A stretch of 41,417 nucleotides of DNA, taken from the NCBI GenBank assembly GCA_022769125.1, contig JALEKN010000008.1:1-41417 (forward strand), in the 5' to 3' direction. The position numbers and the translations under genes were made by a program. How positions within the stretch are numbered: the stretch's first letter is position 1; the number at the start of each line of letters is the position of its first letter. Shown here in pieces: positions 23,677-40,700 of this stretch. The stretch comes from Agathobacter sp. GTDB taxonomy: Bacteria; Bacillota; Clostridia; Lachnospirales; Lachnospiraceae. The notes below the pieces were generated by a model, which searched no databases, was not told the origin of the DNA, and was given only the letters and a program-made list of their open reading frames with translations.

Positions 23677-24381
23677 ATGCGGATACTTATTTGTGATGAT
23701 GATAAATTGTTTTCAGAACAACTGGAGCTTTTGGTGGTTGAGTATTTTCAAAAGCATAAGCTTGAAATTCCAGATATTTGTATTTTTGATAATGGAGAAG
23801 CCTTAATTGCAGATTCAGGGGCGAAGGATATTGTATTTCTTGATGTAGAAATGCCGGGGCGTAGCGGAATCTATGTAGGTAACTATCTGGCGGAAAACAA
23901 TCCGAATACTATTATTTTTATAATAACATCATTTACAGAGTATTTGGATGACGCTATGCGATTTCATGTGTTCAGATATTTAAATAAGCCTTTGGATAAA
24001 AACCGATTGTATCGAAATTTAAAGGATGCATTGTGTGAATATACAACTTGTTCTGCTAAATTTCTTGTTGAAACGAAGGAACAGGTTGTGACTCTTTTGG
24101 CAAATGAAATTATCAGTGTTGAAACACAAAATCGTGTACTTACTGTGCATTCAACGCAAGGAGATTATATTTCTATTCATTCAATGTTGTATTGGCAGGA
24201 GATATTAGTGGATGCGTGTTTTTTTCAATGTCATCGCAGCTATATCATCAATCTTTCTCATGTGCTTCAATTTGGCAAGGAACTGATACAATTAACAAAT
24301 AATCAGCATGCCTATTTGACAAGAAGAAAGTATTCTTCTTTTAAAAAGGCTTATATGCTTTATCTGGAAAATACGAGGTAG
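23677..24381 (+). CDS. LytTR-family response regulator, AgrA-like
   Basis: 234 residues. The receiver domain (1-120) has the acidic pair in ICDDDK, phospho-acceptor Asp56 in VFLDVEMPG, and RYLNKPLD with the conserved Lys. The LytTR DNA-binding domain (about 130-230) shows VETQNRVLTVH, FFQCHRSYIINLSHV and AYLTRRKYSSFKKAY. AgrA-type regulators bind direct repeats upstream of pheromone operons. AAAGGAG precedes ATG 23677. The kinase gene follows after 4 bases. This is the first gene of the AT-rich block; no promoter of its own was seen, so it may be read from hemW. Confidence 0.9.
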   Translation: MRILICDDDKLFSEQLELLVVEYFQKHKLEIPDICIFDNGEALIADSGAKDIVFLDVEMPGRSGIYVGNYLAENNPNTIIFIITSFTEYLDDAMRFHVFRYLNKPLDKNRLYRNLKDALCEYTTCSAKFLVETKEQVVTLLANEIISVETQNRVLTVHSTQGDYISIHSMLYWQEILVDACFFQCHRSYIINLSHVLQFGKELIQLTNNQHAYLTRRKYSSFKKAYMLYLENTR

Positions 24382-24385
24382 GGTT

Positions 24386-25687
24386 ATGGAAGCAGTTGTG
24401 TATTTATGCATTTATTTAGTTGAGGCTTATATTTTCTATCAATACGCAGCAAATTTGTTTGAATTAAGATATTCTCAGCGAAAAACTGTTCTGGGGATAT
24501 TGTCAGCGCATGCTATTATGTATGCAGCCTCCTTTTTCCACAATGCGTTTGGTAATATTTTTGTCTTTGCGTTACTTTCTTGGCTGTTACTCATATGGCT
24601 ATTCGGAATAAATGTTTTTAATGCACTATTTCATACAATAATTCTTTCGGTTTCAATGGTATTGTGTGAAGCCTTGGCGGCAGCTATTTTATCCGGGTAT
24701 ATGCCCGAAATATGGCAGAACTGGTCTCGATATTCGGAAATGATATTTCTGGGTACGTTTAGCAAATTTTTCTATTTCATTTTTACGCAAGTATTAGCTG
24801 GCGTTCAAAGGAAAAGAGTAGTAAAACGTTTCACAGCGGACTTCGGTACATATCTGCTTATTTTGATCAGTCTATGTATAATTTCAGTTCCGTTTATTTT
24901 GTGTTTTCTTGGATGGAATCTTCCGTATTCGAGAACTTTAGAGTATGCGATCGCGATTGGATCAAGTATTATGTTTATCACACTTCTTCTTGTGTACAGT
25001 CTGTACGGCTATAACCAGAAAAAGAGTGAGGCATTTACAGAATTACAGATGCAACTGCAGAAGGAAAAGGATGCAGCAGAGTATTATCAGGTCTTGGTTG
25101 CACAGGATGAAAAACAAAAAATAATGATCCATGATATTAAGAATCATTTACAATCGATAGCATTATTAAATCAACAGAACGACCAGAAAAAAATTGAACA
25201 ATATCTTGATGAATTATTTAAGTCTGACAGCTTGCGCCCATCTGCTCAGATTTGCAGCCATGCATTGTTGAATGCAATTCTTTGCAGATATCGTGCACAG
25301 TGCATGGAAAGAAGCATACATTTTCAGGCTGATATCCGCAGCGGATGTGTAGATTTTTTGAATGATGAGGAAATTACGGCTTTATTTTGCAATCTTCTGG
25401 ACAATGCAATGGAAGCGATTGGAGATACCTCAGATAGTTTTGTTGAAGTGAGTGTGTCGAAACGAAAAAATCAACCGATAACAACTCTCGTGGTAAAAAA
25501 TAGTTGTAAAGATATTCCGAAGCAAGGGAAGATGGGACAGTTCCTTACCCAAAAATCCAACCCGCAGTATCATGGCTATGGATTTCGTAGTGTGAAGCAG
25601 ATTGCGTCACAACATCATGGTCATTTACAGGCATATTATGATGAGACGGAAGCGGTATTTCATGTTATTGTAAGTTTTTATGAGTAG
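24386..25687 (+). CDS. GHKL sensor histidine kinase, AgrC-like
   Basis: 433 residues. The N-terminal 210 residues form about six membrane segments, the pheromone-sensing architecture. A linker helix rich in Gln/Lys precedes the phospho-acceptor His249 in MIHDIKNHLQ. The ATPase part has an N-box (FCNLLDNAMEAIG) and a late Gly motif (GYGFRSVKQIASQHHG), as in the HATPase_c_5 group. It should phosphorylate the preceding regulator on pheromone binding. GC content is low: 19 of 60 bases are G or C in 24421-24480. Confidence 0.9.
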   Translation: MEAVVYLCIYLVEAYIFYQYAANLFELRYSQRKTVLGILSAHAIMYAASFFHNAFGNIFVFALLSWLLLIWLFGINVFNALFHTIILSVSMVLCEALAAAILSGYMPEIWQNWSRYSEMIFLGTFSKFFYFIFTQVLAGVQRKRVVKRFTADFGTYLLILISLCIISVPFILCFLGWNLPYSRTLEYAIAIGSSIMFITLLLVYSLYGYNQKKSEAFTELQMQLQKEKDAAEYYQVLVAQDEKQKIMIHDIKNHLQSIALLNQQNDQKKIEQYLDELFKSDSLRPSAQICSHALLNAILCRYRAQCMERSIHFQADIRSGCVDFLNDEEITALFCNLLDNAMEAIGDTSDSFVEVSVSKRKNQPITTLVVKNSCKDIPKQGKMGQFLTQKSNPQYHGYGFRSVKQIASQHHGHLQAYYDETEAVFHVIVSFYE

Positions 25688-25723
25688 TGTCGTGTGGGGA
25701 GTATTTTAAAGCATTCAGTTTTT

Positions 25724-26062
25724 TTACATAAAATCACTTGGATACTTATTATGACGCGATATCAGAAACTCAACCAAATTCTGTATGATCGCGAGATCAT
25801 CATTACAAAGCTGAAGCATATTTTGAAGATTGAGAGGAACATCATTTGGGTGTAATTGCCCCAACAAAAGGTAATCAGGGCTTACATCTAAAGTATCGCA
25901 AATTTTGCAAAATAATTCTATGCTTGCATGCCCTTTCCCATTTTCTATCGTTGAAAGATGATTATTAGAAATTTGGAGCATTTCTGCAAATTGATTCTGT
26001 GTAATGTTTAATTCTTTTCTGCGTCTTTTTATTCTTTTTCCCATCATAGAAAAATCCAACAT
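25724..26062 (-). CDS. Xre-family HTH regulator
   Basis: 112 residues on the opposite strand, inside the agr-like locus. The HTH_3 domain spans about 8-68: GKRIKRRRKELNITQNQFAEML, ISNNHLSTIENGKGHASIELFCKI and LDVSPDYLLLG. The last 40 residues are helical without a known fold. The start at 26062 has GGAGG 8 bases upstream on the minus strand. It is convergent with the kinase gene and divergent from the pheromone gene, so it is placed to repress or tune the latter. Regulators of this kind sit in several Clostridial agr loci, but this role is inference. Confidence 0.88.
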   Translation of the reverse strand: MLDFSMMGKRIKRRRKELNITQNQFAEMLQISNNHLSTIENGKGHASIELFCKICDTLDVSPDYLLLGQLHPNDVPLNLQNMLQLCNDDLAIIQNLVEFLISRHNKYPSDFM

Positions 26063-26322
26063 TGAGTTTCCTCCTTTGTATAATTGAATCTTATCAAATG
26101 GTAAGTTTTACAAGAAGAATGCGACACAGAATAATTCGCTTATAGATTATAAAAAGCGGATTAAATGTTCTGCGAAAGATTATTTTTTTGGACTAATATG
26201 TGCAAATGTGCCAAGTCGTTGAAATATAAGTTTATCCAAGCGGAGAGTGTCGAATAATTACTACAAATTCATTAAAATAGATACATAGCAATCAATGACA
26301 AAAACTGACAGGGGGTGAGCGT
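26063..26322. promoter_or_regulatory. Divergent control region of xre and agrD-like gene
   Basis: 260 bases, strongly AT-rich, without a convincing gene. Sites seen: the xre ribosome site at 26071-26075 (minus strand); an imperfect palindrome at 26090-26105; AGTCGTTGAA at 26214-26223; TAAAAT (26273-26278) as a likely -10 for agrD without a good -35, as expected of an activator-dependent promoter; and AGGGGGTGA (26310-26318), the ribosome site for agrD. I could not define a clean LytTR direct repeat. Confidence 0.45.
26090..26105. promoter_or_regulatory. Candidate Xre operator
   Basis: CTTATCAAATGGTAAG has arms CTTATC and GGTAAG matching at 5 of 6 positions around AAAT. It lies 27 bases before the xre start codon, where an autoregulator would be expected to bind. 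No second copy was found in the region. Confidence 0.3.
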
Positions 26323-26346
26323 ATCGAAAGAAAAATTAGTTCTGTA

Positions 26347-26469
26347 ATGGCTATGGCAACAGAAAAGGTACTGAAAATGGTCATTAAAGCAGATGCAAAT
26401 GCTGCATCTTGTTTTATGGTTTGGCAAGTAAAGGTGCCAAAAAAATTGGTGCAGTATAGGAGAAAGTAG
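26347..26469 (+). CDS. agrD: AgrD-like cyclic autoinducer peptide precursor
   Basis: A 40-codon gene from ATG 26347. The N-terminal part (ATEKVLKMVIKADANAAS) is an amphipathic-helix type leader. The core CFMVWQ with Cys22 and the tail VKVPKKL resemble the AgrD pattern of a thiolactone Cys followed by a 'PK-(V/I)-P-x-x-L' recognition tail. The simplest mature product is a five-residue ring Cys22-Trp26, but ring size and tail are inference. It ends 2 bases before agrB. The frame is open upstream: a strong Shine-Dalgarno sequence (26310-26318) is best spaced for ATC 26323, which would give 48 residues starting (M)ERKISSV; ATG 26347 has no such site. Confidence 0.85.
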   Translation: MAMATEKVLKMVIKADANAASCFMVWQVKVPKKLVQYRRK

Positions 26470-26471
26470 AG

Positions 26472-27047
26472 ATGATAGTGAGAGCAGTAACCGACTGGCT
26501 AGTTCGGCAAAATGCCATAGTGGAAGATGATAGTGAGTTATATGAATATGCGATTCAAAGCTTTGCCTATTCGGTTGCTCCGATTATATTATTGTTTGCT
26601 ATCGGTATGGTTGTTGGGCAGACCCAAAGTGCGATTATGCTTAGCATTCCGTTATGCTTAATTCGCAGATATAGTGGAGGGTATCATGCTCCATATGGGT
26701 GGTTATGTATAATAATATCGGTCGGAGTATTGAGTTTTTGCGTTCTCATTCAGGCGTATATGCAATGCAATATATGGCTTTTGCTATTTATGCTATTAGC
26801 TATTTTCGGTTTGTGCATTTTGAGCCCGATTGATTCTTTAAATCGACCACTTGATCAATCGGAAAAGAAGCGGTACAAGAAATGCACTATGATGATAACA
26901 TTGCAATGCGCATGTGCTTATTTGGGGGCATGGTTATTGGGCAAAGAGCAAGTCGCTTGTTGCGTTGCGACAGGAATTATACTTGCTGCATTACTTCAAC
27001 TTCCATGCATTCCAAAACTACTTAAAGACCACTTGGTAGGTAAATAA
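26472..27047 (+). CDS. agrB: AgrB-like pheromone-processing membrane protease
   Basis: 191 residues, typical of AgrB. Several membrane segments are visible. The catalytic pair is His72 and Cys79 in RRYSGGYHAPYGWLC, seven residues apart as in S. aureus AgrB. LSPIDSLNRPL is another family motif. AgrB cuts the C-terminal tail of AgrD and closes the thiolactone ring. It lies immediately after the agrD-like gene. Gene order here is regulator-kinase-(xre)-D-B, unlike the B-D-C-A order of Staphylococcus. Confidence 0.93.
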   Translation: MIVRAVTDWLVRQNAIVEDDSELYEYAIQSFAYSVAPIILLFAIGMVVGQTQSAIMLSIPLCLIRRYSGGYHAPYGWLCIIISVGVLSFCVLIQAYMQCNIWLLLFMLLAIFGLCILSPIDSLNRPLDQSEKKRYKKCTMMITLQCACAYLGAWLLGKEQVACCVATGIILAALLQLPCIPKLLKDHLVGK

Positions 27048-27169
27048 GTTGTTTCGTGCATGGATGATTGACAAAAAAATGCATGGAAGATAAGTTGAAA
27101 GTAGTCATTGAATTGCTATGGATGTTATTGGTTTATTATTAACAGAGTTATTAACAAAGGAGAAAAACT

Positions 27170-27568
27170 ATGAAAACACGAATTAAGCGAGTAATGGCAA
27201 TTATGTTGGGGTGTATGGTATTGGTTGCAGGAAATAGTGTGACAGTGAAGGCTGTTTCACAAGAGAGTGGAGTTTTGGGAACAGCAGCGGTTCAGGCTTC
27301 TGTGTCAATTAGCAGTTCATCGGCAACAGCGACAACAACATGTGGCAGAAGTGCTACTATCAATGTTTCTGCAACGGTGTATTACCATTTCGGAACTGGC
27401 TGTTACAAAACAACTGCAAGTAATTCCTCTTCCGGTGGTGGAACAAGTGCAACGGCTACAAAACAACTTGGGGGTGCCGATGTGATTGGAGGAAAGGGCG
27501 TGCATTATGTCGCGTTCGAGTCTTATTCATGGAATCCGACAACAACCGTTGGAGTTGTACTTGATTAG
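27170..27568 (+). CDS. Small secreted Ser/Thr-rich protein, unknown family
   Basis: 132 residues. A Sec signal peptide (basic MKTRIKRV, hydrophobic MAIMLGCMVLVAG) likely ends after VKA at residue 29, leaving about 103 residues. The mature part is rich in Ser, Thr, Gly and Val with alternating beta-type stretches and two Cys in SATATTTCGRSATINV and HFGTGCYKTT that could pair. No enzyme motif is seen. A good AAAGGAG precedes ATG 27170. Its place between agrB and an export-type ABC cluster makes it the candidate product or effector of the quorum system, for example a bacteriocin-like protein; I do not recognise the family. A hairpin follows the gene. Confidence 0.75.
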   Translation: MKTRIKRVMAIMLGCMVLVAGNSVTVKAVSQESGVLGTAAVQASVSISSSSATATTTCGRSATINVSATVYYHFGTGCYKTTASNSSSGGGTSATATKQLGGADVIGGKGVHYVAFESYSWNPTTTVGVVLD

Positions 27569-27588
27569 TTTAATAGTGAATTGAAATG

Positions 27589-27615
27589 CGGGGCACCTGA
27601 TAAATCAGCGTGCCC
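27589..27615 (+). terminator. Intercistronic hairpin without T-run
   Basis: GGGCAC (27590-27595) with GTGCCC (27609-27614), and inside it CTGAT with ATCAG around AA, form a nearly perfect 11-bp stem. Since TGTAAGTAAAA follows rather than a T-run, it is more likely an attenuator or 3'-end stabiliser that favours the small secreted protein over the downstream genes. Confidence 0.55.
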
Positions 27616-27636
27616 TGTAAGTAAAATGGAGGGGAT

Positions 27637-28893
27637 ATGAGAAAAGGAATACAAGCCATTGGGGTGATAGCACTTACTCTTATAATGACAGGATGTGGGC
27701 AAGCAAATTTAGGAAACAGTTATAACGAAGGAACAGATCATCAGTATATGTATGATGAACGAATCGGTTTTTTACACAAGCAGGCAAAAGGAGAAAATGG
27801 ATATTTCTTTTATCATGATAATTTTTTATATTATCGAGATTCAATGACAGAGGAGCTTATTCCTTTGTGTAATCGGGTGGACTGCCTGCATGATGAAGAG
27901 ACGGATATGGATAGGCGGGTTACTTGTAATGCTTATGTAGGCTACGAGACCGGCTCTGATTATCCTGCGGATGTTGGAATAAGCTACTATGATGGATATT
28001 TGTATTTTATTGCAGAAGACACACCATCGCATAGCTGCCTGCAAAGAATAAAGGAAGATGGAACAAATCGGGAGAAAGTGTATGATTTCGGGGATGCCGT
28101 TTTATATGGGTGGTGCATTCACAGAGGAGCGCTGTATTATTCAGAGCAAACATACACAACAGAAGAGATTTTTAAAATTAACAAGCTTACGCTTAGCGGA
28201 AAGAAAAAGCTGGAAACGATTTATGAACCGGATAGGGATAATGTAACGGTATACTCGTTAGGCGCGAGAATTACAGCTTATGGAGATTATGTTTTCTTTT
28301 CTTCTGTTGGAACAAAAGGAAATTCACAGGACGAGATAACACAAGAAAATTACGCGGATTATGCATTTGATCTTACCTACGCATACAATTTGGAAAATGG
28401 CGAACTAAGCGAAATTAAGGCACCAGATACGCAGAAAAATACATATTTGGGACAGGTTTCTTTTTGGAAAGATCATCTGGTGTTTGTGGAAAATATATGG
28501 GGAGAGGATTGGACAGGTAAATCAAACTTATATATTGCAGATTTAGATGGGCAAAATGCAGAGAAACTTTTGGAAACAGAAGGTGGAATGTATGTAGATA
28601 GTGATGGTACATATCTGTACCTGAATAATGAAGGTAGATATTCATCTGGAGTTGATGAGGCACAAAGATATTGGGTATATGGGGATAATATGGAATTGGT
28701 AGACTCTTTTCAAGTGAGCAGACCTAGATTTAACAGCATGCCAATAGGAGATGAGAATGGATTGTGTTACTGTGCGGATGATGAAAATGTATGGCGTTTG
28801 ATACAGTTTGACAAGTCAGACATTGGTACGATAAACGGGGAAGAATTGTCAGGTAAAGTATTGACGGAGCGTAAAAAAATTGCGGTTGAATGA
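27637..28893 (+). CDS. Lipoprotein with propeller-like repeats
   Basis: 418 residues. A lipoprotein signal ends at TGC20. The rest consists of repeated short strands with Tyr-rich motifs (GYFFYHDNFLYY, GYLYFIAED, GALYYSEQTY, DYVFFSSVG, DGTYLYLNNE) spaced about 45-60 residues apart, resembling DUF5050-like beta-propellers. A Cys/His cluster, LCNRVDCLHD followed by TCNAY, near residues 75-105 recurs in Lachnospiraceae relatives I recall. GGAGGGG precedes ATG 27637. It may be the surface partner, immunity or substrate-recognition protein of the ABC transporter behind it; this is inferred from position only. Confidence 0.75.
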   Translation: MRKGIQAIGVIALTLIMTGCGQANLGNSYNEGTDHQYMYDERIGFLHKQAKGENGYFFYHDNFLYYRDSMTEELIPLCNRVDCLHDEETDMDRRVTCNAYVGYETGSDYPADVGISYYDGYLYFIAEDTPSHSCLQRIKEDGTNREKVYDFGDAVLYGWCIHRGALYYSEQTYTTEEIFKINKLTLSGKKKLETIYEPDRDNVTVYSLGARITAYGDYVFFSSVGTKGNSQDEITQENYADYAFDLTYAYNLENGELSEIKAPDTQKNTYLGQVSFWKDHLVFVENIWGEDWTGKSNLYIADLDGQNAEKLLETEGGMYVDSDGTYLYLNNEGRYSSGVDEAQRYWVYGDNMELVDSFQVSRPRFNSMPIGDENGLCYCADDENVWRLIQFDKSDIGTINGEELSGKVLTERKKIAVE

Positions 28894-28930
28894 GCTGTGA
28901 ATACCATAACATGTATGCGAGGAGTAATGT

Positions 28931-30997
28931 ATGAAATTTGAATGCATGAAGCTAATGCAAAGAAAGGTTTTTTTGGTATTGACTCTTGGTCTGTTGGTGG
29001 GAAATGCCCTACTTATTTATATTCGGGAATATACACAGGAACGATATCACGTTGTCTATGAAAGCCGTAGCCAGTATGAACATTTTCTCGCCGGAGATGA
29101 TTCGGTGGAGGGGGCAGATGTATATGCTGTGGAGGAAGCAAAACAAGAGACTTATATTGAAAGTTATCCTCAATTCTTAAGCGGAATGAAGCAGCGCGTC
29201 GAAACGCAGAAAAAATTGGAAATATATGAGGCGGATAGCTACGCCTCCCGTAATTTGGAAAAAAGTTATGAAGATTATCAAAGGCTAAGTGGAATTAGCT
29301 TGGAAAAGGGAAACAATTATGGAATTGAGGCATACAGTGGATACCATATGGGAATTGTTTTCGTTTTCTGCTTCCTGCTTATCAGTGTGTATTATATGGT
29401 GTACGAGGAACGTGGGAAAGGCTTGTTTTTACTGACGAAGGGAACTAAGAACGGACATGTAGTTTTCGCTGCGAGAAAAGATCTGGTATTATGCATGTTA
29501 TGTGGAATATACACCTTGGCACAGGAGTTGATAACGATAGCTCTATTTGCCTATTGGTATGGATTCGGCAACTTACAGCGCAGCATACAATCTGTCCCGC
29601 AGTTTCGCAACTGCCCATATCGGATAAACATCTGGATGGCGGTGGTAGGACAGACAGGTATCAGGATATTGGTGGCAGTTGTTCTAACCGCAGTTGTTTA
29701 TTTGATCGGCATTTGTATAAGAAATGAAGTGTTGGCGCTTGTACTGTCTGCAGGAATTTTAGGCTTGCTTTATATCAGCAGTACAGTTTTTTCTTTGTAT
29801 GGTTCAGTAAATGGTGTGCGTTGCATCAACCCATTTTTTGTATGGAGTATAGATAATACATTTGGAATGTATTTAAATCTGAATTTGTTTGGATTTCCGG
29901 TAGGAAAGAATGTGGCTGCAGCAGCTATGGGATTGGCGGTTGTAGTGATTGCTTGTATTGTAGGCGCATATGTATTTCACAGAAGTTGCCAGATCCGCTC
30001 GAAAAGCCGGTTAGAGAATTTTTTATATTATATAAGGAAAAAGACGGCATGGCAGTGGCAGCATACGAGTCTGTTCCGCTTTGAACTATCTAAGCTTATG
30101 ATTGGTCAGAAGCGGATTATAGTGCTTTTACTTTTGGAAATGTGGTGTGTATATTCCGTTTGGTCAGTACACACTGTTCATTTTTATCCGACTGCGGAAT
30201 TGATGTCATATCATAATTTCATGAAGAATATTCATGGTCGGATTACGGATGGAAGTCTTGCTTATGTCGAGACGCAGATTACGAATATTGATGAACTGTA
30301 TAATCAGATTGAAGTGGCTATGCAAGGGGATACAGAGAAAAATGCACCTTATATCATGAATTTGCAGCATGAACTGCAAATTAAAGAGGATGCAGTGCGG
30401 CGTCTGCAGAATCAACGGGACAATTTATTCGCCCAAAAAGAAAGTATATATGATAAATATTTTGTGGACGAGGTTGCATATAATGACATCTGGCAGGATG
30501 TAACTGGAGAACTTGTGAGATGGTTTGTGTGTGCTGGCTCGATTATGCTTCTGCTCTGTGGCACTTTCGCGTTTGATGAAAAGAAAGGAATTTCGCCTCT
30601 TTTGTCTGCAACGGTTAATGGAAGAAGGACACTTGAAAGACAACAAAAGCGAGCAGGGTGGTTTGGTGCATGCATGTTGATTGCCCTGACGGAAATACCG
30701 ATACTTTATGAGTATTGGCATATTGATGGTTTTTCCTGCTTGCAGCACAGACTATCTGATTTTTGGATGCTTTCTATGTCGGGAAATTTTACGATTGGCG
30801 CATTTATTGCAGTGACAATGTTCTTTCAGATAATTTCACTTTTATTTGTCACATATGCAGGGATGAAGTTAGCATTGTTTGTAAAAAACGAGATTGTTTC
30901 CTGCGTGATAGGAATTGGGATACTTGGTTGTGCATTCTTTATATTATATATAACACAGAAAGATATTACAGGGCTGATATTGAGCATACAGATGTAA
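28931..30997 (+). CDS. Fused double ABC-2 permease with ectodomains
   Basis: 688 residues. Two similar halves are visible, each opening with a single membrane segment after a basic 'FE(C/L)xKLM' motif (residues 3-30 FECMKLMQRKVFLVL and about 385-405 FRFELSKLMIGQKRIIVLLLL). Each then has an outside domain of about 100 residues rich in coiled-coil segments, and a cluster of five or so membrane segments. This is the layout of a tandem ABC-2 or bacteriocin-associated permease. No nucleotide-binding domain is present; the ATPase gene follows 13 bases later. AGGAG lies 5 bases upstream of ATG 28931. Confidence 0.8.
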   Translation: MKFECMKLMQRKVFLVLTLGLLVGNALLIYIREYTQERYHVVYESRSQYEHFLAGDDSVEGADVYAVEEAKQETYIESYPQFLSGMKQRVETQKKLEIYEADSYASRNLEKSYEDYQRLSGISLEKGNNYGIEAYSGYHMGIVFVFCFLLISVYYMVYEERGKGLFLLTKGTKNGHVVFAARKDLVLCMLCGIYTLAQELITIALFAYWYGFGNLQRSIQSVPQFRNCPYRINIWMAVVGQTGIRILVAVVLTAVVYLIGICIRNEVLALVLSAGILGLLYISSTVFSLYGSVNGVRCINPFFVWSIDNTFGMYLNLNLFGFPVGKNVAAAAMGLAVVVIACIVGAYVFHRSCQIRSKSRLENFLYYIRKKTAWQWQHTSLFRFELSKLMIGQKRIIVLLLLEMWCVYSVWSVHTVHFYPTAELMSYHNFMKNIHGRITDGSLAYVETQITNIDELYNQIEVAMQGDTEKNAPYIMNLQHELQIKEDAVRRLQNQRDNLFAQKESIYDKYFVDEVAYNDIWQDVTGELVRWFVCAGSIMLLLCGTFAFDEKKGISPLLSATVNGRRTLERQQKRAGWFGACMLIALTEIPILYEYWHIDGFSCLQHRLSDFWMLSMSGNFTIGAFIAVTMFFQIISLLFVTYAGMKLALFVKNEIVSCVIGIGILGCAFFILYITQKDITGLILSIQM

Positions 30998-31010
30998 GGA
31001 AAGGAGCCAT

Positions 31011-31877
31011 ATGGAACTGGAATTGAAATCTGTTAGCAAGAGTTACCAAAAGGGACAGAAGATAGCGGTTGATGATTTTTCAATGAAATTTGAAACGGGA
31101 GTGTATGGGCTGCTTGGACCAAATGGAGCTGGAAAAAGTACGCTGATGAATATGATTACCGATAATCTGAAGCCGGATAAGGGAACTATTTGCTATAATG
31201 GAACATCTATTTTAGCGCTTGGGGCAGAATACAGGAATTTACTTGGCTATATGCCACAGCAGCAGAATCTGTATGATGATTTTTCTGGTGAGGAATTTTT
31301 ATGGTATATGGCATCCCTAAAGGGAATGAAAAAATGTGATGCAGCAGAACAGATAGAGATGCTTCTTAAGATCGTAAACCTTTCGGATGAAAGGTATAAA
31401 AAGCTTAAAGCTTACTCCGGGGGTATGAGACAGAGAATTTTAATTGCGCAGGCACTGTTAAATAATCCATCCATCCTTATTCTTGATGAACCGACGGCGG
31501 GGCTTGATCCCAAAGAGCGTATTCGCATTAGAAATTTTATCAGTGAGATGGCAAAAAATAAAATTGTACTCTTAGCAACGCATGTAGTATCAGATATAGA
31601 ATATATTGCCCGTGAAATTTTAATTATGCAAAATGGACACATTGTGAAAAGCGGAACACCGGAAAAACTACTTCAATCAATGGAACATAAGGTGTTTGAA
31701 GTTTTGGTTAACGAAGAAGAGAAAAGGTGGTATGAAAACCAAAATTACCGCATTGCAAATGTTATGTATGCAGGCGAAGGTACATGCCTTCGTATCGTGT
31801 CAGATGAAAAACCAACCAAGGGAACTGTGCAGGAGACGCGTCCAAGTTTGGAAGATGTATATTTGTATTTGGTATAG
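31011..31877 (+). CDS. ABC transporter ATP-binding protein
   Basis: 288 residues. Walker A GLLGPNGAGKST, Q-loop MPQQQNLYDDF, signature YSGGMRQR, Walker B LILDEPTAGLD, and ATHVV as the H-switch are all present. The C-terminal 70 residues are an accessory domain as in CcmA/BcrA-type ATPases of drug and lantibiotic exporters. AAGGAG precedes ATG 31011. It should drive the preceding permease. It is the last gene of the low-GC block, and the transcript end is unclear. Confidence 0.92.
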   Translation: MELELKSVSKSYQKGQKIAVDDFSMKFETGVYGLLGPNGAGKSTLMNMITDNLKPDKGTICYNGTSILALGAEYRNLLGYMPQQQNLYDDFSGEEFLWYMASLKGMKKCDAAEQIEMLLKIVNLSDERYKKLKAYSGGMRQRILIAQALLNNPSILILDEPTAGLDPKERIRIRNFISEMAKNKIVLLATHVVSDIEYIAREILIMQNGHIVKSGTPEKLLQSMEHKVFEVLVNEEEKRWYENQNYRIANVMYAGEGTCLRIVSDEKPTKGTVQETRPSLEDVYLYLV

Positions 31878-31996: not shown

Positions 31997-33775
31997 ATGC
32001 CGGATAAAAAAATCAAAAAAAATTCCATCGTTCTGCCAGTCTTAGCAGCTCTTGTGCTGGCTGTCCTGCTTGTGACTGTATCGCAGACAGAGGACATATC
32101 CGTTACCGGGACAAGAAACAGTTCTGGTTTTGCGGCAATGGAGGATGTGACAGAAATAGAACTTACGCAGGAGGATGCCCCCATCGGTGTGCGAAAGGAA
32201 TATACTTTCACCCTGAGCGATATCGTAGCACATGACACGAGCCTTGCGTTCTACACCGTCCACCAGTATGTGACCGTCTACCTGGACGGAAAGGAAATCT
32301 ACAGCTTAAAGCCAGCGGGCAGTCACCGTTTCACAAAGACAGTCGGCAGCAACTGGGTGATGATACCGCTGTATGCAGAGGACAGTGGAAAAGAAGTAAA
32401 AGTAGACATCACGCCCGTTTACGAGAGTTTTCGAAACAGGAAAGTGACCTTTTTCATTGGCTCCCCGCTTGCCATATACCGCAACCGTCTAGCAAAAGAC
32501 CTGCCGCAGATTATCCTTGCTAGTATCGCAATCTTAATGGGATTTACGTTTGTGTGTGTAGCGGGGTACAGCCATCTCAAAAAACGTCCGGGAAAAAGAC
32601 TTGCTGTTCTTGGAATATTTTCCGTTATGCTCGGATTATGGAGATTGATGGACACAAGATTTACACCGTTCATGGATGGCGGTCAGCCAGTGCTTTTTTA
32701 TTACATCGCGATCACCATGCCGATGCTTGGGATACTGCCGCTGGTGCAGTGGACAAAAGACTCTTTTTCGGAAAAAGGGCGTAAAGTGATAAGCGGTTAC
32801 GAGGCAGGAATAGCCATTCTCTGCCTATTGCAGTTTACACTACAATGGCTTGGAATCTGTGATCTGAGAGAGTCCATGACAGCCACCCATGTTTCAATGG
32901 GAATCGGGGCGGCAATCCTTGTCGGACTTTCAGTGAAAGAGCGGAAGAAAATGCAGATACCGCTTGCACTTTTATGTGTGGCAGGTATCCTCGCAGATGT
33001 GGCAGCCTTTTATATCAAGGGCAACTCCTCTGGTCTGTTATTCTCCCTCATGGCATTTGTCATCTATATCATGATCATGGGCGTACATACCATGTTTGAA
33101 TACGGCGGACAACAGGTGCAGATCGCAAAATTAGACCGGGAGCTTGCGGAGAAAGACCGGGAGCTTGCAGCACAGGAGCGGGAACTGACGGACAGCAGGA
33201 TAAAAGCCATGATGAGCCAGATACGCAGCCACTTTATTTTCAACGTGCTTTCAACAATAAGCAGTTACTGTAAAGTTGATCCGAAAGAGGCTGACCGGGC
33301 ATTGATCACCTTTTCAAGATATCTGAGAAGAAATATCCAGAATATTGAGGAAGATGGACTGATTGATTTTGCCACGGAATTGGAACAGGTAAAAGATTAT
33401 GTGGTATTGGAACAGCTCCGGTTTATGGACAGGATTCTGTTTGAGACAGACATTGAAACGACTAGTTTCCAGATACCGCCCCTTACCATACAGCCGATTG
33501 TTGAAAATGCAATCAAGCACGGTATCATAGAACACGGTAAAAGTGGGGTTATCATACTGCAAACAAGAAGAAATGAGAACTGTATTGAAATCACAGTGAC
33601 GGATAACGGTGTGGGATTCGACTTAAAGCTGCTTGAAAAAAGTGAGTCTGTGGGCATTCGAAATGTCCGCTACCGGGTAGAAAATATGTTAAACGGAACA
33701 ATGGAATACCATAGCGTCATGGGGAAGGGTACGACAGTAACCATTAAGATACCGCAAAAGAGTGATATGGTGTAA
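31997..33775 (+). CDS. LytS-like sensor histidine kinase
   Basis: 592 residues. An N-terminal membrane segment is followed by an outside beta-rich domain (about 35-160) like 7TMR-DISM-type sensors. Seven or so membrane segments (about 170-385), a charged coiled coil (KLDRELAEKDRELAAQEREL) and the His_kinase domain follow, with phospho-acceptor His412 in IRSHFIFNVL. The ATPase has an N-box (QPIVENAIKHG) and VTDNGVGFD. GAGGAGTGA precedes ATG 31997. It forms a pair with the next gene. GC is higher than in the preceding block (28 of 60 in 33181-33240), so it may have a separate origin. The ligand is unknown. Confidence 0.92.
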   Translation: MPDKKIKKNSIVLPVLAALVLAVLLVTVSQTEDISVTGTRNSSGFAAMEDVTEIELTQEDAPIGVRKEYTFTLSDIVAHDTSLAFYTVHQYVTVYLDGKEIYSLKPAGSHRFTKTVGSNWVMIPLYAEDSGKEVKVDITPVYESFRNRKVTFFIGSPLAIYRNRLAKDLPQIILASIAILMGFTFVCVAGYSHLKKRPGKRLAVLGIFSVMLGLWRLMDTRFTPFMDGGQPVLFYYIAITMPMLGILPLVQWTKDSFSEKGRKVISGYEAGIAILCLLQFTLQWLGICDLRESMTATHVSMGIGAAILVGLSVKERKKMQIPLALLCVAGILADVAAFYIKGNSSGLLFSLMAFVIYIMIMGVHTMFEYGGQQVQIAKLDRELAEKDRELAAQERELTDSRIKAMMSQIRSHFIFNVLSTISSYCKVDPKEADRALITFSRYLRRNIQNIEEDGLIDFATELEQVKDYVVLEQLRFMDRILFETDIETTSFQIPPLTIQPIVENAIKHGIIEHGKSGVIILQTRRNENCIEITVTDNGVGFDLKLLEKSESVGIRNVRYRVENMLNGTMEYHSVMGKGTTVTIKIPQKSDMV

Positions 33776-33801
33776 ACAGCTTTCGGGGAAAGGATGGCAA
33801 C

Positions 33802-34587
33802 ATGAATGTAATATATGTAGATGATGAACCAATGCAGATAAAAAACTTCTGCCTCACGACAGAAGGAATGAGGCACATTGACAGCCTGGAAACCTTCGAA
33901 AAAGGACAGGACGCTTTGGAATGGACAAAAGCACATTCCGTGGATGTGGCATTCCTTGATATTGAGATGCCCGTGATGAATGGAATCGAGCTGGCAAAGA
34001 AATTAAGGGAGATAAACATCAATATCCGGATCATATTTGTGACGGCTTATGAGAAATACGCATTAGATGCTTTTGGAGTGGAGGCCATCGGGTATCTCTT
34101 AAAACCATATACCAGTGGAGATGTGGAAAAGCAACTGAAGAGAGCCTTTTATATGAGGGAAATTCCCAAAAAGGAAATACGGATAAAGACCATGCCTAAT
34201 CTTCGGATATGGGTGGATGAAACTCCGCTTGTGCTGGGACAGACGAAACAGATAGAATTGCTGGCATATTTTATAGATCACGGGGAAAAAGGGGTAACAA
34301 AGTTGGATGCCATAGAGACACTTTGGGCAGGATATTCGACAGAGAGTGTGTATTGGACAACGATGTCAAGATTGAAGTCACTGTTGGATGAAGCGGAAAT
34401 CCCCAATCTCATCATATCAAGAGGGCAGGCAAAATGTATCAACATGGGGATTGTGGACTGTGACCTGTATCGCATGCTAAACGGGGATGAGACGGTAATT
34501 GACCAATATAACGGGGAATATCTGGAAGAATATGTATGGGCAAAAGATAGAAAAAAAGAATTGGACAGAATAAAGCAAAACAGATAG
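33802..34587 (+). CDS. Response regulator with SARP/BTAD-like output domain
   Basis: 261 residues. Receiver: IYVDDEP with the acidic pair, phospho-acceptor Asp53 in AFLDIEMPVMNG, FVTAYEKYALDAF and YLLKPY. The output begins at about 130 as a winged helix (IRIKTMPNLRIWVDETPLVL, ELLAYFIDHGEKGVTKLDAIETLW), followed by VDCDLYRMLNGDETVIDQYNG and a C-terminal BTAD-type helical part. It is similar in layout to SARP regulators rather than LytTR, which is unusual next to a LytS-like kinase. A hairpin terminator follows, then the giant surface protein gene, the likely target. Confidence 0.9.
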   Translation: MNVIYVDDEPMQIKNFCLTTEGMRHIDSLETFEKGQDALEWTKAHSVDVAFLDIEMPVMNGIELAKKLREININIRIIFVTAYEKYALDAFGVEAIGYLLKPYTSGDVEKQLKRAFYMREIPKKEIRIKTMPNLRIWVDETPLVLGQTKQIELLAYFIDHGEKGVTKLDAIETLWAGYSTESVYWTTMSRLKSLLDEAEIPNLIISRGQAKCINMGIVDCDLYRMLNGDETVIDQYNGEYLEEYVWAKDRKKELDRIKQNR

Positions 34588-34748: not shown

Positions 34749-37700
34749 ATGAAAAAATTTTTCTTATTTATAAAAACTTTTAGACAAATTCGTAAGAAAA
34801 GAAAGAACGCGCGGTTTGAGGCGTTGTATAATAGCACACTTCCTCTTCGGGTTGCGAAAAAGAATACGATTTCTGCACTTGCAGGGGTTGGAAGGAATCA
34901 TAAACTATTGCGCTATCCAATATTGGCGCTGTTAGCGATTTTTATCTTTATCTACAATTTGTTTTTGTATGCCTTTTTACATCTGAAAATGCGTGAAAAA
35001 CTAGCAAGGGGAATGGCTGTTGTAATGACAGCCGCGCTTGTGATCACCAGCATTGACCTTACGGTATTTGCTACGATGTTACAGGAAGGCTGGAAGGATA
35101 GCTGGACGATAAATGAAATTGTGGATGAAGTAGCAGCCGTAGAGGTACCTTATGGCACAAAGCAGGCGGATATCGGATTAACGGATAAATTAGCCGTTAC
35201 TGTGTCATATGAGGTAGAGGCTGCAGAAGAAGCAGAAGACACACAGCGAGAAGAGAGTACTAAAACACCAGAGGATACACAGGTATCAGAGACACCGGAA
35301 GTTGAGCCGGAGACAGCTACGGTAGAGAAAGCTGGCGTAGAAGAAATACCGGCAACCGAGGAAGAAGCAGAAGCAGCAGAGGAATCAACCACAGAAGAAA
35401 TACCGGCAACAGAGGAACCTGCAACAGAGGAAGTGCCGGCAGTCGAGGAAGAAACAGAAGCAACAGAGGAACCTGCCACAGAAGAAATAGCGGAAGCTGA
35501 GCCGGAGTCAGAAGAATTAGAGGAGACTGAGCCAGAAGAAACATCGGAAATTGAGCCGGAAACAGAGAAAATAATGGAACCTGTTATTCGGACAGAACAG
35601 ATTGATGTTGATGTTGACTGGGTGTGTGATTCCTACGATAGAAAGACTCCTGGAGAATATGTATTTCAGGCAATTCTGAGCAAGTCCACCTATGAAGGGC
35701 ATGGGCTTGTTCTTGATGCTGTTCTTCCAAGTGTTACGGTAACGGTATTGGAACCGGAGGAGTTCTTTGCAAAGCAGGTGGTGGATGGAATTGAAGTCTC
35801 CCTTGTGGCAGAGGAAGGAGTGTTCCCGGAAGATGCAGTACTTTCTGTCAGACGGATTGATAATGAAAATGAAGTTCAAAAAATCGAAAGTGCAATACAG
35901 GATAGATTGGATGAGGAAACACAGAGACTGGAAGTAGTAGATGAGACAATCATTTTTGATATTACCGTTTATGATAAGGATGGTAATGCAATTCAGCCGG
36001 AAAGCAATGGAGCAAAATTATTTTTCCGGAATGTTGATCTCACAAAGCAAGTAGATGCGGAGGACAGCCTTGATATTTACTATGTGGATGATAACCATGA
36101 GACGGCAGAACTCGTGGAGTCTGTAGTGGAAGAAGATGGCCTTTCATTTGAACCGGAACATTTTTCTACATATTCTATTACAAAGGTAACAACAGCTGCA
36201 ATTTACGAGACGATTGGTATTGATTCGGAATCGCTGAATGCGAACGCAATCTGGGGTAAGACGGAGAGTTTTTCTAATGTGAAGACCTCCGGTGGAGTGG
36301 ATTTTTATGCGGCCTTTTATGAAGCAAGCCATAATTCCACAGGCGGAATCCAAAGCCAGAACTATGAAGTTGGCTCTATGGAGCCGAGTGCACCGGATGA
36401 TGCCACTATTCAGGTGGCTTTGGGAAATATTACCACAGATAAGGGAGTACCATATATTTTCTCACAGACAGGGGAAGATGTTCTCGATGGAAACGATGCA
36501 ATCCGATTGTCAGGTAATAAGACTTCGGCAAGTGTAAATCTTGCTTCCTATGGCTCTTATAACACCATTTATGTACTTGGCACAGCAGGAGGTCCGGGAA
36601 GTGGACACTATGCTGATTTTTCGGTAACACTTCATTATACGGACGGAAGTAAGGATAATTATGATTATAAGCTGTACGATTGGTATGACGGTTCTGTTAC
36701 ACAAGTAAATGATAAGGTGGAGCTTTACGCACCGCTTCAACGAATCCAGCTTAGCACACAGCGTGTTGATGGCTCAACGAAGGCAGGACCTTTTTTGCAG
36801 TCTGCTGCAATTAAGGCAGATCCGAATAAGCTGTTATGCTCGATTGATTTTGTGGCAAAAGGAAAAGATGGTTCTGGGTCTATGAGTGGGATCTATTGCG
36901 ATATTTTTGCAATTACAGGAGCAAAAGCAGCAAATGTCCCGGCAAGACCAACTGCATATTCTGCTGATGATAAGTTGACGGATCAGTGTACACTCCGCTG
37001 GTCGGAGGTGAGTGGGGCCAGCGGATATGTAATTGATATTTCGGAAGACCGTGACTTTACCAGCTATGTGATCGCAAATTACACGGATGAAAACCAGAAT
37101 AAGCAAACGTTTAAGTTTACAAACTATACTGTTCCAAATGCGCAGATTAAAGATGGAATGGTGTATGCGAAGGTTTATGGACTTGAGGCAGAAAAGAAAT
37201 ACTATTTCCGGGTAAGGGCTGTAGGTAATACAGGACAGAGTATAAGCTCAAATATTATTTCATTTTCGCTTCCGGGTGTCCTGCTGCAGCTTGATACATC
37301 CTCCAAGCTTGAGATTGCACTGGCACTCGGAACCACCAAGGTGGATAGTGCTGCATTTGAGGAGGAACTTCGTGCGGCATTGGAGAGAAAGGGAATTGCA
37401 TCCGAACGGATCTCATTTGCAGAGGTGGATGCGAATGCAAGTGCATCCACCAGTAAGTTTGACTGGTGGAAGTATGATCATACGAAAAAAAATGGTACTA
37501 ATGTTAAGCGTGATAATACGAAACATATATATATAGAACCCAATAGTAATGATACTCAGGTGTATGATAGACTTACCAGCCATATTGAAGAAAGCAGTGG
37601 ATCAATGATCTTCAAGGGTTATGGTTCTGAAGCATATACGGACTGGCTGTATCAGGTGAACACGCAGGCAACTCAGAAGCAGATCCAGTTTACCTTGAAA

Positions 37701-40700
37701 GAGGATGCATTTGATGCATTGGATGCATTTGGGTTTCTGGTTAATTGCTCGATAACCGGAAATTATCCCAATTACTCAAGCAATGCGCAGCGATTAAACG
37801 GATACCTGCTGGCATTTGAATATTATGGACAACCGTATGGTCAGAAGATTACCTTATATAAATTGGATAATGTCAATACATATCAGTTCCACCATGGAAC
37901 ACCGGGAGATCTTAGAAATTGGGATAACAGTAAAGGATATGGAACGATAACACCAATCGGAAGCTCTTCCGTATATAATTGGAACAATTCCAGTACAAGA
38001 AATCTTTATCGAAAGGTAAAGGTTGAGGTTATGCCTACCTATATCAAGATATGGCTGGCAAGCGGAACCGGCAGTAGTGTATTCAGCAAGGAACTTGGTG
38101 ACAGCGATCTGGTTTCCCTTACGGCAAGCAGCACCATAACCGGAGCTGTAACGGGGAAGGGATATACAGAATTTCCATTGACAGCAGGCTATGATGGAAA
38201 GCTATACCGGGGTGGATTCGGACCATTGGGATCATACCATTCACATGGTTGTGAACAAGAAACAAAAGTTACATTATCTAACCTTTCCATGACTGCAGAT
38301 TATGTGCGTTCATTGACAGAGGTGGTTCGTGAGCCAAATTGGAATGAAGATGCCTTAAGTTATCTGGTCAACTTGAATGAGGCGAGTATTGATGACTTTA
38401 GTGATGTTTATTCGACCGCGGAGATTATCAACCGCCTTACCGAAGATGATGTCACTTATATTGGCTGGTGTGGAAATGAAAATAAGGCGGCTTCCCAAGC
38501 ATTCGTAGATGGGGCAGCAAATAATAGTGCCCTTGTAAGTGTCGATGAGTATGCAGATGCAAATGGGAATGCATACACGAAGGAGGCAAGACTGCGTCAG
38601 GTTGATGCAATTGCGGAGGCTATCGTTGCTCGGCTTAAGCAGACAATTGTCCCTTCCACAAGCGGCGAAGTATCGAAAGGAACATATACCTCTGAAAGTG
38701 ATTTCTCATTTAGCTCAACAGGAACATCATTAGATGATGGCAATTGGAGCGTCGGATATAGTGAGATTGATTTCAACAGCTGTAAAGATAACGTACAGAC
38801 CTATAAGGATTTAGGTGCGGCATCATTTGAGACTGTGGGATATTACGAAGTCTATTATAATGGAGAATTGAAGTCCCAGATCCGTATTCATGATGCACCA
38901 CAGGCGATTTTGAACGTCAGCGTGAATAAATCGAGTGGGGAATCTGTTCTTGAGGTTGAGAATAGGTCATACGATCCGGACACAGTTAAGAAGGATAACC
39001 TAAACATTTCTGATGCAGATGGTTCAAAGACCTATGGTATTGATACATCAAAGACAGTTTTGGAATACAAGAAATTATCTGACAGCAAGGCAGAATGGAC
39101 AACATCAAAGCCAAAAACAGTTGCAGCAGGAGAAACATGGATTGTGCGATTAACTGTTACCGATGTGGAGGGAAGTACTTCTTCTACAACAAGACAGATA
39201 AGCGTAGCAGGAGAACAGCAGACAATGATCGCAGCTCCATATGGCTCTTTCCGTTTATCAAAATCAGTTTATACAAAAACAACCGGAAGTAACACGGCAG
39301 GATTTGATACCAGTGTTGTTATTACAGATCAGTCCTATTCGCTGGATGGATCGGCATTTACTACTTCATATGTCCTGACAGATGCGAACGGAAAGCAGAT
39401 GGCTGCTTTTTCGGTAACACCGGGAGCAACGTATGAATATCCTCTTACATCGTTAAGTGGTAATTATACATTATCAATGACAGCCACGATCACGGTTGGG
39501 AGTGTGACTAAAACATCCGCTAAGGTATCCAGAAACTTCTCTGTCAAGACCGGATATCTGGTAACATATGATGCGAACGGAGGACAGGGAGCACCTGCAA
39601 ATCAGAATAAGAATTCCGGTGAGGCATTGAAACTTTCAAAGAATGCACCGGCAAGAAATGGATATACGTTTGCAGGCTGGGCAACTTCCAAGGAAAATGC
39701 CGACTCTTATTCGGTTTCTTACACAACGGGTTCAACTTATAATACGGATGCAGGTCTTAACCTATATGCGGTATGGCTGAAAAACATGTCCGTTTCGGCG
39801 AAGGGAAGTACGGTTGAATATGATGGTCTGGCACATGGAATTAATGTTTCCGTGTCTGAACCGGGAAGTGACTATACGATTACATATGGTACAGCGGCAT
39901 CTTCTTGCAATTTAACTTCTCTGACATACAGCAAGCCGGGAAAGTATACAATATTCTATAAAGTAATAAAAAATGGATATCAGACAGTTACCGGAAGCAG
40001 GCAGGTTGAAATCAAAAAGGGAACTGCACGGATTGAATTAGAGGATACCGATGTAAGCTTTTATAGAACGAAATGTGGTGAAATTAAGCCTGCTCAAGTC
40101 ACAGCTGTAGATACAAAGTATGCAGAAGTGACGTACACTTACTATAAAAATGCAGATTGCAGCATTTTTACATCTACCTCCGATGGAGCAGTCGGCGAGG
40201 GAAAAGCACCAAAAAATCCGGGCACTTATTATGTAACGGCATCGAGCGCGGAAAATGAATATTATAAGTCTGGGACAAGCAATGTAGCTATTTTAAAAAT
40301 TCTGACCCATAAAGTGGAATTTGACGGAAATGGCAGAATATTTACGAAAAATGAACCGGAAAGTCAGCAAAACCTTGCAGTGGGTGATAAGATTGCAGCA
40401 CCTACGCCAATCCCGAAGACAGACGATGCAATTCTGGTTGGCTGGTACAAAGATGTTATATCTGAGACCGAATGGAATTTTGCAGAGGATACCATTGAAG
40501 GGGACACCGTTCTTTACGCAAAATGGCGCTTGAAATCGGATTATCCTGCTTATTGGAAAGTTGAGGGTGAGGATGATTATCACTATGGTGAAGTGGATGA
40601 AGTCCTTGATATCCTGGATAGACAGGATGCTCCGGGGGTTAGCGAAGTGCAGATTCAGAAGGACGCGGATATTAATGATCTGACAGTACCGGATGACGTC

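Follow-up and report, generated by a model that had tools for sequence, protein, structure and literature searches.

In a contig of Agathobacter sp. (GenBank assembly GCA_022769125.1, contig JALEKN010000008.1; the analysed stretch of 41,417 nucleotides is hereafter called the window), positions 23677-31877 hold a LytTR regulator, a GHKL kinase, a divergent Xre regulator, an AgrD-like precursor, AgrB, a small secreted protein (SSP), a lipoprotein (LIP), a fused double permease (PERM) and the ATPase of an ATP-binding cassette (ABC) transporter. We suggest that SSP is an antibacterial protein secreted by the general secretory (Sec) pathway under agr control, and that LIP together with PERM-ABC makes the producer immune to it. 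Judged from sequence comparison, we hold this to be rather probable. The PERM-ABC pump is probably not the exporter of SSP. An earlier first-pass annotation, made from the letters alone, had listed the same genes; Pfam, NCBIfam and open reading frames (ORFs) place every one of them where it was named. By its matches for AgrB, the GHKL kinase and the LytTR regulator, the set is of the agr (AgrBDCA) type.

A secreted protein behind AgrB

A search of the genus with the kinase of the window (E 1e-30) hit 12 places, spread over 10 of 62 genomes. Eight of these places, which represent seven loci, have AgrB beside the kinase with 1 kb or more of contig beyond it. The seven loci are the window and those in G037 (L094), G010 (L108), G015 (L109), G027 (L110, with two kinases), G013 (L112) and G033 (L113). 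At all seven, the gene right after AgrB encodes a small protein that carries a signal peptide (in L094 and L113 read by eye, since the ORF caller used upstream starts). As for the remaining places, the contig of G026 ends 169 bp past AgrB, that of G041 ends before any AgrB, and the second kinase place of G015, at 2751650, has no AgrB nearby in our genus list. A kinase and regulator pair of the same clade in G056 (L115, G056:C20, 7067-9126) has no AgrB within 16 kb around it.

Under a strict rule (a protein of at most 220 residues, encoded by the first gene after AgrB), a small secreted protein is thus found at 7/7 kinase-clade loci versus 2/37 other readable loci of the genus (G005, L140, and G029, L123), with a Fisher p of 9e-7. 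Under a looser rule (at most 270 residues, or the second gene) the other loci reach 5/37 (p 2e-5), and both values ignore kinship among the seven loci. Secreted proteins beyond the strict rule have 250 (L149) or 267 residues (L146) or stand in second place (L120). AgrB assignments are Pfam-based. The genus yielded 60 AgrB matches, 50 of which enter the main count; six have less than 1 kb after AgrB, which leaves 44 readable. Three of the 10 weakest matches lie in other proteins, one is at a contig edge and two are one gene. Five genes or fragments then remain, and one of them, a cut AgrB at the contig end of G037:C47, has a small secreted protein behind it; including these five changes the count for other loci to 3/42.

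Pairwise identity among the seven SSPs is 19-28%, which is near noise for proteins this different, while their AgrBs reach 77%. The product slot is therefore kept and the product changes. This agr type recurs with secreted-protein operons. At five of the seven loci (window, L094, L109, L110, L113) the genes behind SSP encode first a lipoprotein or anchored protein, then an ABC permease and ATPase; in G013 a lipoprotein gene comes next, and then the contig ends. The SSPs of G027 and G013 belong to DUF2712 (PF10916, above cut-off), a Pfam family that the window SSP does not match. In G010 (L108, 9323-11396, minus strand) agrD-agrB-SSP is followed by a VanZ gene (85 bits), not by a lipoprotein and ABC genes; the VanZ family includes glycopeptide-resistance proteins.

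The first-pass annotation had proposed that SSP is the product controlled by the circuit and that the ABC complex might export it. We consider the first half very likely, because a small secreted protein follows AgrB at every readable kinase-clade locus despite varying sequence and varying downstream genes. Judged by gene order, the regulator is tied to a product class and not to any single family.

Some secreted proteins were also noticed behind other AgrBs. L140 (5879-6295, G005) and L175 (G037:C47) have similar ones behind AgrB of another agr type, and in both cases a second secreted protein, alike at the two loci, comes next. Proteins near AgrB in L120 (1845-2330) and L149 (G004:C32) have a common VPDGATI/IPDGATI-like stretch and perhaps form a further agr-linked secreted family.

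SSP, LIP and the transporter

SSP (27170-27568, plus strand, 132 aa) carries a signal peptide recognised by inspection and is predicted to be a beta-sandwich. Its AlphaFold2 model has a predicted local distance difference test score (pLDDT) of 75.7 and a predicted template modelling score (pTM) of 0.68, and ten-residue blocks over residues 41-130 reach 85-93. Relatives were found at 34-37% identity. Twenty-two aligned SSPs have Sec-type signal peptides, with Ala nearly invariant at the expected cleavage site. They come from 18 of 55 permease loci and were chosen from a heuristic list, in part by eye; doubtful candidates in L071, L075 and L080 were excluded, the start in L056 is uncertain and the SSP of L066 lies beyond a two-component pair.

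LIP (27637-28893, plus strand, 418 aa, lipobox IMTGCG) models as a beta-propeller lipoprotein (mean pLDDT 66, pTM 0.72). Solved structures similar to the model include TolB and a 7-bladed protein of Eubacterium rectale, the LIP sequence has a sub-threshold TolB-propeller match (15.9 bits) and one homologue reaches DUF5050. PERM (28931-30997, plus strand, 688 aa, ABC-2-like) has 10-11 hydrophobic segments and is, by alignment of its two halves (HHalign probability 99.8, E 1.6e-29), an internal duplication. The ATPase (31011-31877, plus strand, PF00005 108 bits) scores best among NCBIfam models with GldA and DrrA, below their cut-offs. It gives 113.7 bits to TIGR03608 (cut-off 254.85) and 150.8 to TIGR03740 (lantibiotic protection, cut-off 309.75). 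SSP, LIP and PERM pass no Pfam or NCBIfam cut-off, so that ABC alone among the last four genes passes Pfam.

The gaps from AgrB to SSP, SSP to LIP, LIP to PERM and PERM to ABC are 122, 68, 37 and 13 bp. The last four genes lie side by side, 13-68 bp apart, which would suit a complex that exports SSP or assembles it on the cell surface. We regard such a role as very improbable, given the Sec-type signal peptides with their near-invariant Ala, the ATPase resemblance to GldA and DrrA and the fact that no processing peptidase was seen in the operon. Together with the 37 of 55 permease loci at which no SSP was recognised, the signal peptides leave the exporter half of the annotation's proposal unsupported.

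The LIP-PERM-ABC module and its link to agr

A profile of the permease finds relatives in 59 of 397 Lachnospiraceae genomes and in 16 of 62 genomes of the genus. Around 55 permease loci, an ATPase lies within 3 kb in 54, a LIP-family gene within 6 kb in 52 and AgrB within 10 kb in 6. These loci are a non-random set: five were fetched for their nearby AgrB, flank lengths vary and neighbours were counted as homology hits. SSP was recognised (partly by eye) at 18, and ten of the 37 loci without it have less than 3 kb upstream of the permease. Presence of LIP, PERM and ABC without a recognised SSP is what one would expect of resistance or immunity sets. The modules closest to that of the window (PERM 41%, LIP 43% identical) occur in G051 and G036 of the same genus, where two SSPs, LIP, PERM and ABC stand together; the genus AgrB search gave no match at all in these two genomes.

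Genes of agr systems are widespread in Lachnospiraceae, with AgrB passing the cut-off in 132 of the 397 family genomes. It lies within 10 kb of the permease in at least five genomes besides the window (G210, G476, G073, G015, G037), where 0.47 would be expected (Poisson P 1.3e-4). The expectation was derived from 246 AgrB matches and 76 + 23 permease matches outside the window (some of them pieces of one gene) and assumes genomes of 3.0 and 2.8 Mb; the family co-location count is a lower bound. The association of agr with the permease is real and above chance. SSP is present at four of the six agr-permease loci (window, L094, L095, L097).

The opposite possibility is a chance neighbourhood, in which an agr island landed next to an unrelated pump operon. 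It would agree with the scarcity of agr at permease loci in general, and with hemW, the gene that borders the block in the window, being on other contigs than the cassette in G010 and G037. With the excess of AgrB near permeases and the secreted protein at 7/7 kinase-clade loci, we think it the least probable of all the explanations considered here, slightly behind export by the ABC complex. The annotation had named conserved co-occurrence of the downstream families with agrBD as a check of its proposal. It had held that the proposal would fall if these families were mostly found without agrBD, and for LIP-PERM-ABC as families this is so (49/55 loci). But the association is above chance, and the agr subtype is itself tied to secreted-protein operons. 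The agr link thus survives in a changed form.

Joint variation of the secreted protein and the lipoprotein

SSP and LIP come in repeated units. Three SSPs, with mutual identities of 55-64%, are found among five LIPs in G073, which also has AgrB, and G468 has two SSPs with two LIPs, one SSP being cut by the contig end. One lipoprotein of L095 was left out of identity comparisons. When the modules of G051 and G036 are compared, PERM and the first SSP are 95.6% and 94.9% identical, the second SSP and LIP 78.3% and 81.8%. The rates of nonsynonymous (dN) and synonymous (dS) substitution follow the same division, with dN and dS of 0.020 and 0.13 for PERM, 0.026 and 0.19 for the first SSP, 0.134 and 0.38 for the second SSP and 0.106 and 0.40 for LIP. 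In LIP, 150 of 185 base changes fall into the first 260 of 435 codons, that is, the first 60% of the gene. Because both dN and dS are raised in the second SSP and in LIP, these two genes vary together, through recombination, selection or both.

There is another way to read the pair. SSP might be a public signal, a decoy or an envelope protein that binds an outside molecule such as an antimicrobial peptide or a glycan; LIP would then read or receive SSP, and LIP-PERM-ABC would be a resistance or stress pump switched by agr. In agreement with such a non-toxic role, LIP-PERM-ABC sets at L057, L067, L099, L101, L103 and others adjoin genes read as extracytoplasmic function (ECF) sigma factors or OmpR-type two-component systems, neighbours typically seen with envelope stress. 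The middling fold matches of SSP agree with it as well: among them are a carbohydrate-binding module and further generic beta-sandwiches. The repeated SSP-LIP units, their joint divergence and the replacement of SSP by bacteriocin-type genes (see below) fit a toxin-immunity pair better, so that we take this alternative to be unlikely, if clearly ahead of the two mentioned above.

Bacteriocin-like operons in the same position

The gene order of the pBL1 operon recurs behind AgrB in G029 (L123, G029:C76, 280-4359): first a lactococcin-972-like protein of 93 residues, next a membrane protein resembling TIGR01654 and last an ATPase. The scores lie below cut-off for each: 247.5 bits versus 254.85 for L_ocin_972_ABC, E 1e-10 for TIGR01654 and E 1e-5 for TIGR01653. 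AgrB stands at the contig start here, with the two-component genes outside the view. In G015 (L144, G015:C1:837620-850156) AgrD-AgrB precede an ABC transporter for peptide cleavage and export (TIGR01193, 603 bits, above cut-off) and an HlyD-like adaptor. Small ORFs with a GG-type motif, read as bacteriocin precursors, are also present, and L144 is a candidate agr-linked class II bacteriocin locus. These two operons indicate that the genus uses the place after AgrB for bacteriocin-like operons of at least two kinds, besides other genes.

The agr cassette

The AgrA-like response regulator (23677-24381, plus strand) combines a receiver and a LytTR domain (PF00072 52 bits, PF04397 53 bits, above cut-off). 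The AgrC-like GHKL kinase (24386-25687, plus strand, PF14501 68 bits) has relatives beside agrBD in G010 (61% identical) and G037 (59%). The Xre-type helix-turn-helix regulator (25724-26062, minus strand, HTH_3 59 bits) is divergent from agrD. Homologues at L108, L109, L110, L112 and L113, and by reading also at L094, make it, in terms of gene neighbourhood, a recurring part of this agr cassette. Blocks of the xre-agrD intergenic region (26063-26346, plus strand) are conserved in G010 and G037 in a three-way alignment, and within them a TATAGCAATCAATG-CAA-like sequence stands just before agrD.

AgrB (26472-27047, plus strand, PF04647 125 bits, cut-off 23), the pheromone-processing membrane peptidase, has an H-x6-C motif at residue 72, with a spacing that presumably resembles the catalytic pair of Staphylococcus aureus. 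The putative agrD pheromone precursor (26347-26469, plus strand, AgrD-like) scores 16.3 bits with TIGR04223, below the cut-off of 19, and two relatives score 34.3 and 44.4 bits, clearly above it. The predicted core of the window, ...AASCFMVW, lies ahead of QVKVPKKL. Cores differ between loci (CFMVW in the window, SHLFY in G037, CHLIY in G010, CIIMY in G015, CVITY in G033), with leader and tail features in common; for the ring we assume the S. aureus pattern. An AGGGGG at 26310-26315 precedes an in-frame ATC at 26323, and in L094 (G037) an ATG was seen by eye at the matching place. Within 26310-26349 there is no standard agrD start codon at the spacing expected from this ribosome-binding-like site, and the true start may be the non-standard ATC at 26323 instead of 26347.

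A possible model

In the model we favour, AgrB would process AgrD into a small cyclic thiolactone, which the GHKL kinase and the LytTR regulator would sense, with Xre as a second control; these roles are assumed here from what is known of the families. At high cell density, the run agrD-agrB-SSP-LIP-PERM-ABC would be turned on. SSP would then leave through Sec, fold outside as a beta-sandwich and inhibit related Gram-positive cells, namely kin lacking the set, probably at the envelope. LIP on the surface of the producer would capture the cell's own SSP, and the doubled PERM with its ATPase would clear SSP or an SSP complex from the membrane. The pump would thus serve immunity and not export.

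Several points weigh against this model. Firstly, AgrB is out of view at the 49 permease loci counted above, no SSP was seen at the agr-permease loci L093 and L096, and outside the kinase clade a small secreted neighbour exists in G005, G029 and at the cut AgrB of G037:C47. Secondly, the 122-bp gap before SSP leaves room for a separate promoter (promoter-like sites occur at background, 25 found and 22.0 expected), and with its odd agrD start this genome may signal weakly or have lost signalling. Thirdly, the operon proteins of the window reach no bacteriocin or immunity family in Pfam or NCBIfam, and the fold search of SSP gave generic beta-sandwiches only. Membership of SSP in the lactococcin 972 family was considered and rejected, with no TIGR01653 or PF09683 match at E up to 1 and an hhalign probability of 0.3 against lactococcin 972 of pBL1; when the SSP profile is compared with the lactococcin-972-like protein of G029, the signal peptide region alone aligns. 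Further, the raised dS of the second SSP and LIP speaks for recombination no less than for selection. Finally, the structure of the signal, the regulation, the antibacterial action and the immunity are all what we infer from genes and their relatives.

A more general proposal, which we put forward at slightly less than an even chance, is that Lachnospiraceae possess a new superfamily of quorum-controlled, Sec-secreted beta-sandwich antibacterials. Each would have a fast-changing propeller immunity lipoprotein and a doubled ABC-2-like permease, and they would act as interchangeable cassettes behind one agr subtype with differing pheromone cores. If our assumptions are true, then part of gut quorum sensing controls competition of strain against strain through an undescribed protein class and immunity architecture, and the slot after AgrB is a handle for finding more such proteins.

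Genomic surroundings

The annotation had also described the block as low in guanine plus cytosine (GC), which is correct: GC is 35-41% over 24-32 kb versus 44-49% in the preceding 5 kb. The hemW gene that borders the block is present in 56 of 62 genomes of the genus (E 1e-100). Right after the module follows a second two-component pair (31997-34587), a His_kinase protein with HATPase_c and a response regulator. The gene at 31997 has relatives, 40-56% identical at E 1e-60, in five other genomes of the genus. The placement of hemW and the relatives of this gene fit a mobile island without proving one. A huge open frame (34749-41417, 2223 residues to the end of the window) probably encodes a surface protein; it contains Listeria-Bacteroides repeats and matches fibronectin III weakly.

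Relation to known systems

Titles and abstract starts of open-licence literature on agr together with secreted proteins, bacteriocins, lactococcin 972 or lipoproteins contain no description of such an operon that we could find, and in the same literature no paper naming DUF2712 was found. To our knowledge, no output has been assigned to this agr subtype in Lachnospiraceae.

In lantibiotic immunity, LanI and LanFEG combine a lipoprotein with an ABC pump for self-protection. LIP and PERM-ABC resemble this arrangement, and the ATPase is sub-threshold for TIGR03740; unlike in lantibiotic operons, no lanthipeptide gene was seen in the window, the permease is a single fused protein and the lipoprotein is a predicted propeller.

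The Fsr system is an agr-type circuit. In Enterococcus faecalis, Fsr controls the secreted antimicrobial enterocin O16, or EntV (EF1097), according to excerpts of two papers (PMC5454873, PMC9562342), and the proposed role of the window circuit is the same in kind. The products differ, since EntV is cleaved by a protease and active as an alpha helix, as excerpts describe it (PMC6606811, PMC11077972), whereas SSP is a predicted beta-sandwich.

The operons of lactococcin 972 and streptococcin B have a similar plan. For streptococcin B, the excerpted source gives a small Sec-secreted beta-sandwich protein, a presumed immunity membrane protein, a transporter protein and control by a peptide pheromone (PMC11796350). 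The window likewise has a small protein with a Sec-type signal peptide, followed by membrane and transporter genes, and an agr-type circuit; a beta-sandwich is predicted for this protein too, with generic fold matches. It differs in its doubled ABC-2-like PERM, its extra propeller lipoprotein and its ATPase, which reaches 113.7 bits where TIGR03608 demands 254.85. One of the 22 SSPs has a weak TIGR01653 match (E 0.037). PERM was also tried as a TIGR01654 protein and rejected (no NCBIfam match at E up to 1; hhalign probability 0.2 against the pBL1 protein). In one Staphylococcus genome, agr and lactococcin 972 are at separate chromosome positions in the excerpt available (PMC11161930). An AgrB-linked lactococcin-972-like operon does exist in the genus of the window, at L123.

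The secreted DUF2712 proteins, too, are comparable to SSP. They follow AgrB in G027 and G013, and elsewhere have lipoprotein and ABC-2-like neighbours. At L154-L166, in other Lachnospiraceae, several DUF2712 genes stand ahead of a gene for a lipoprotein-like or anchored protein and the start of an ABC-2-like permease, and at L160 an AgrD-like ORF of 49 residues lies immediately ahead of the DUF2712 gene.

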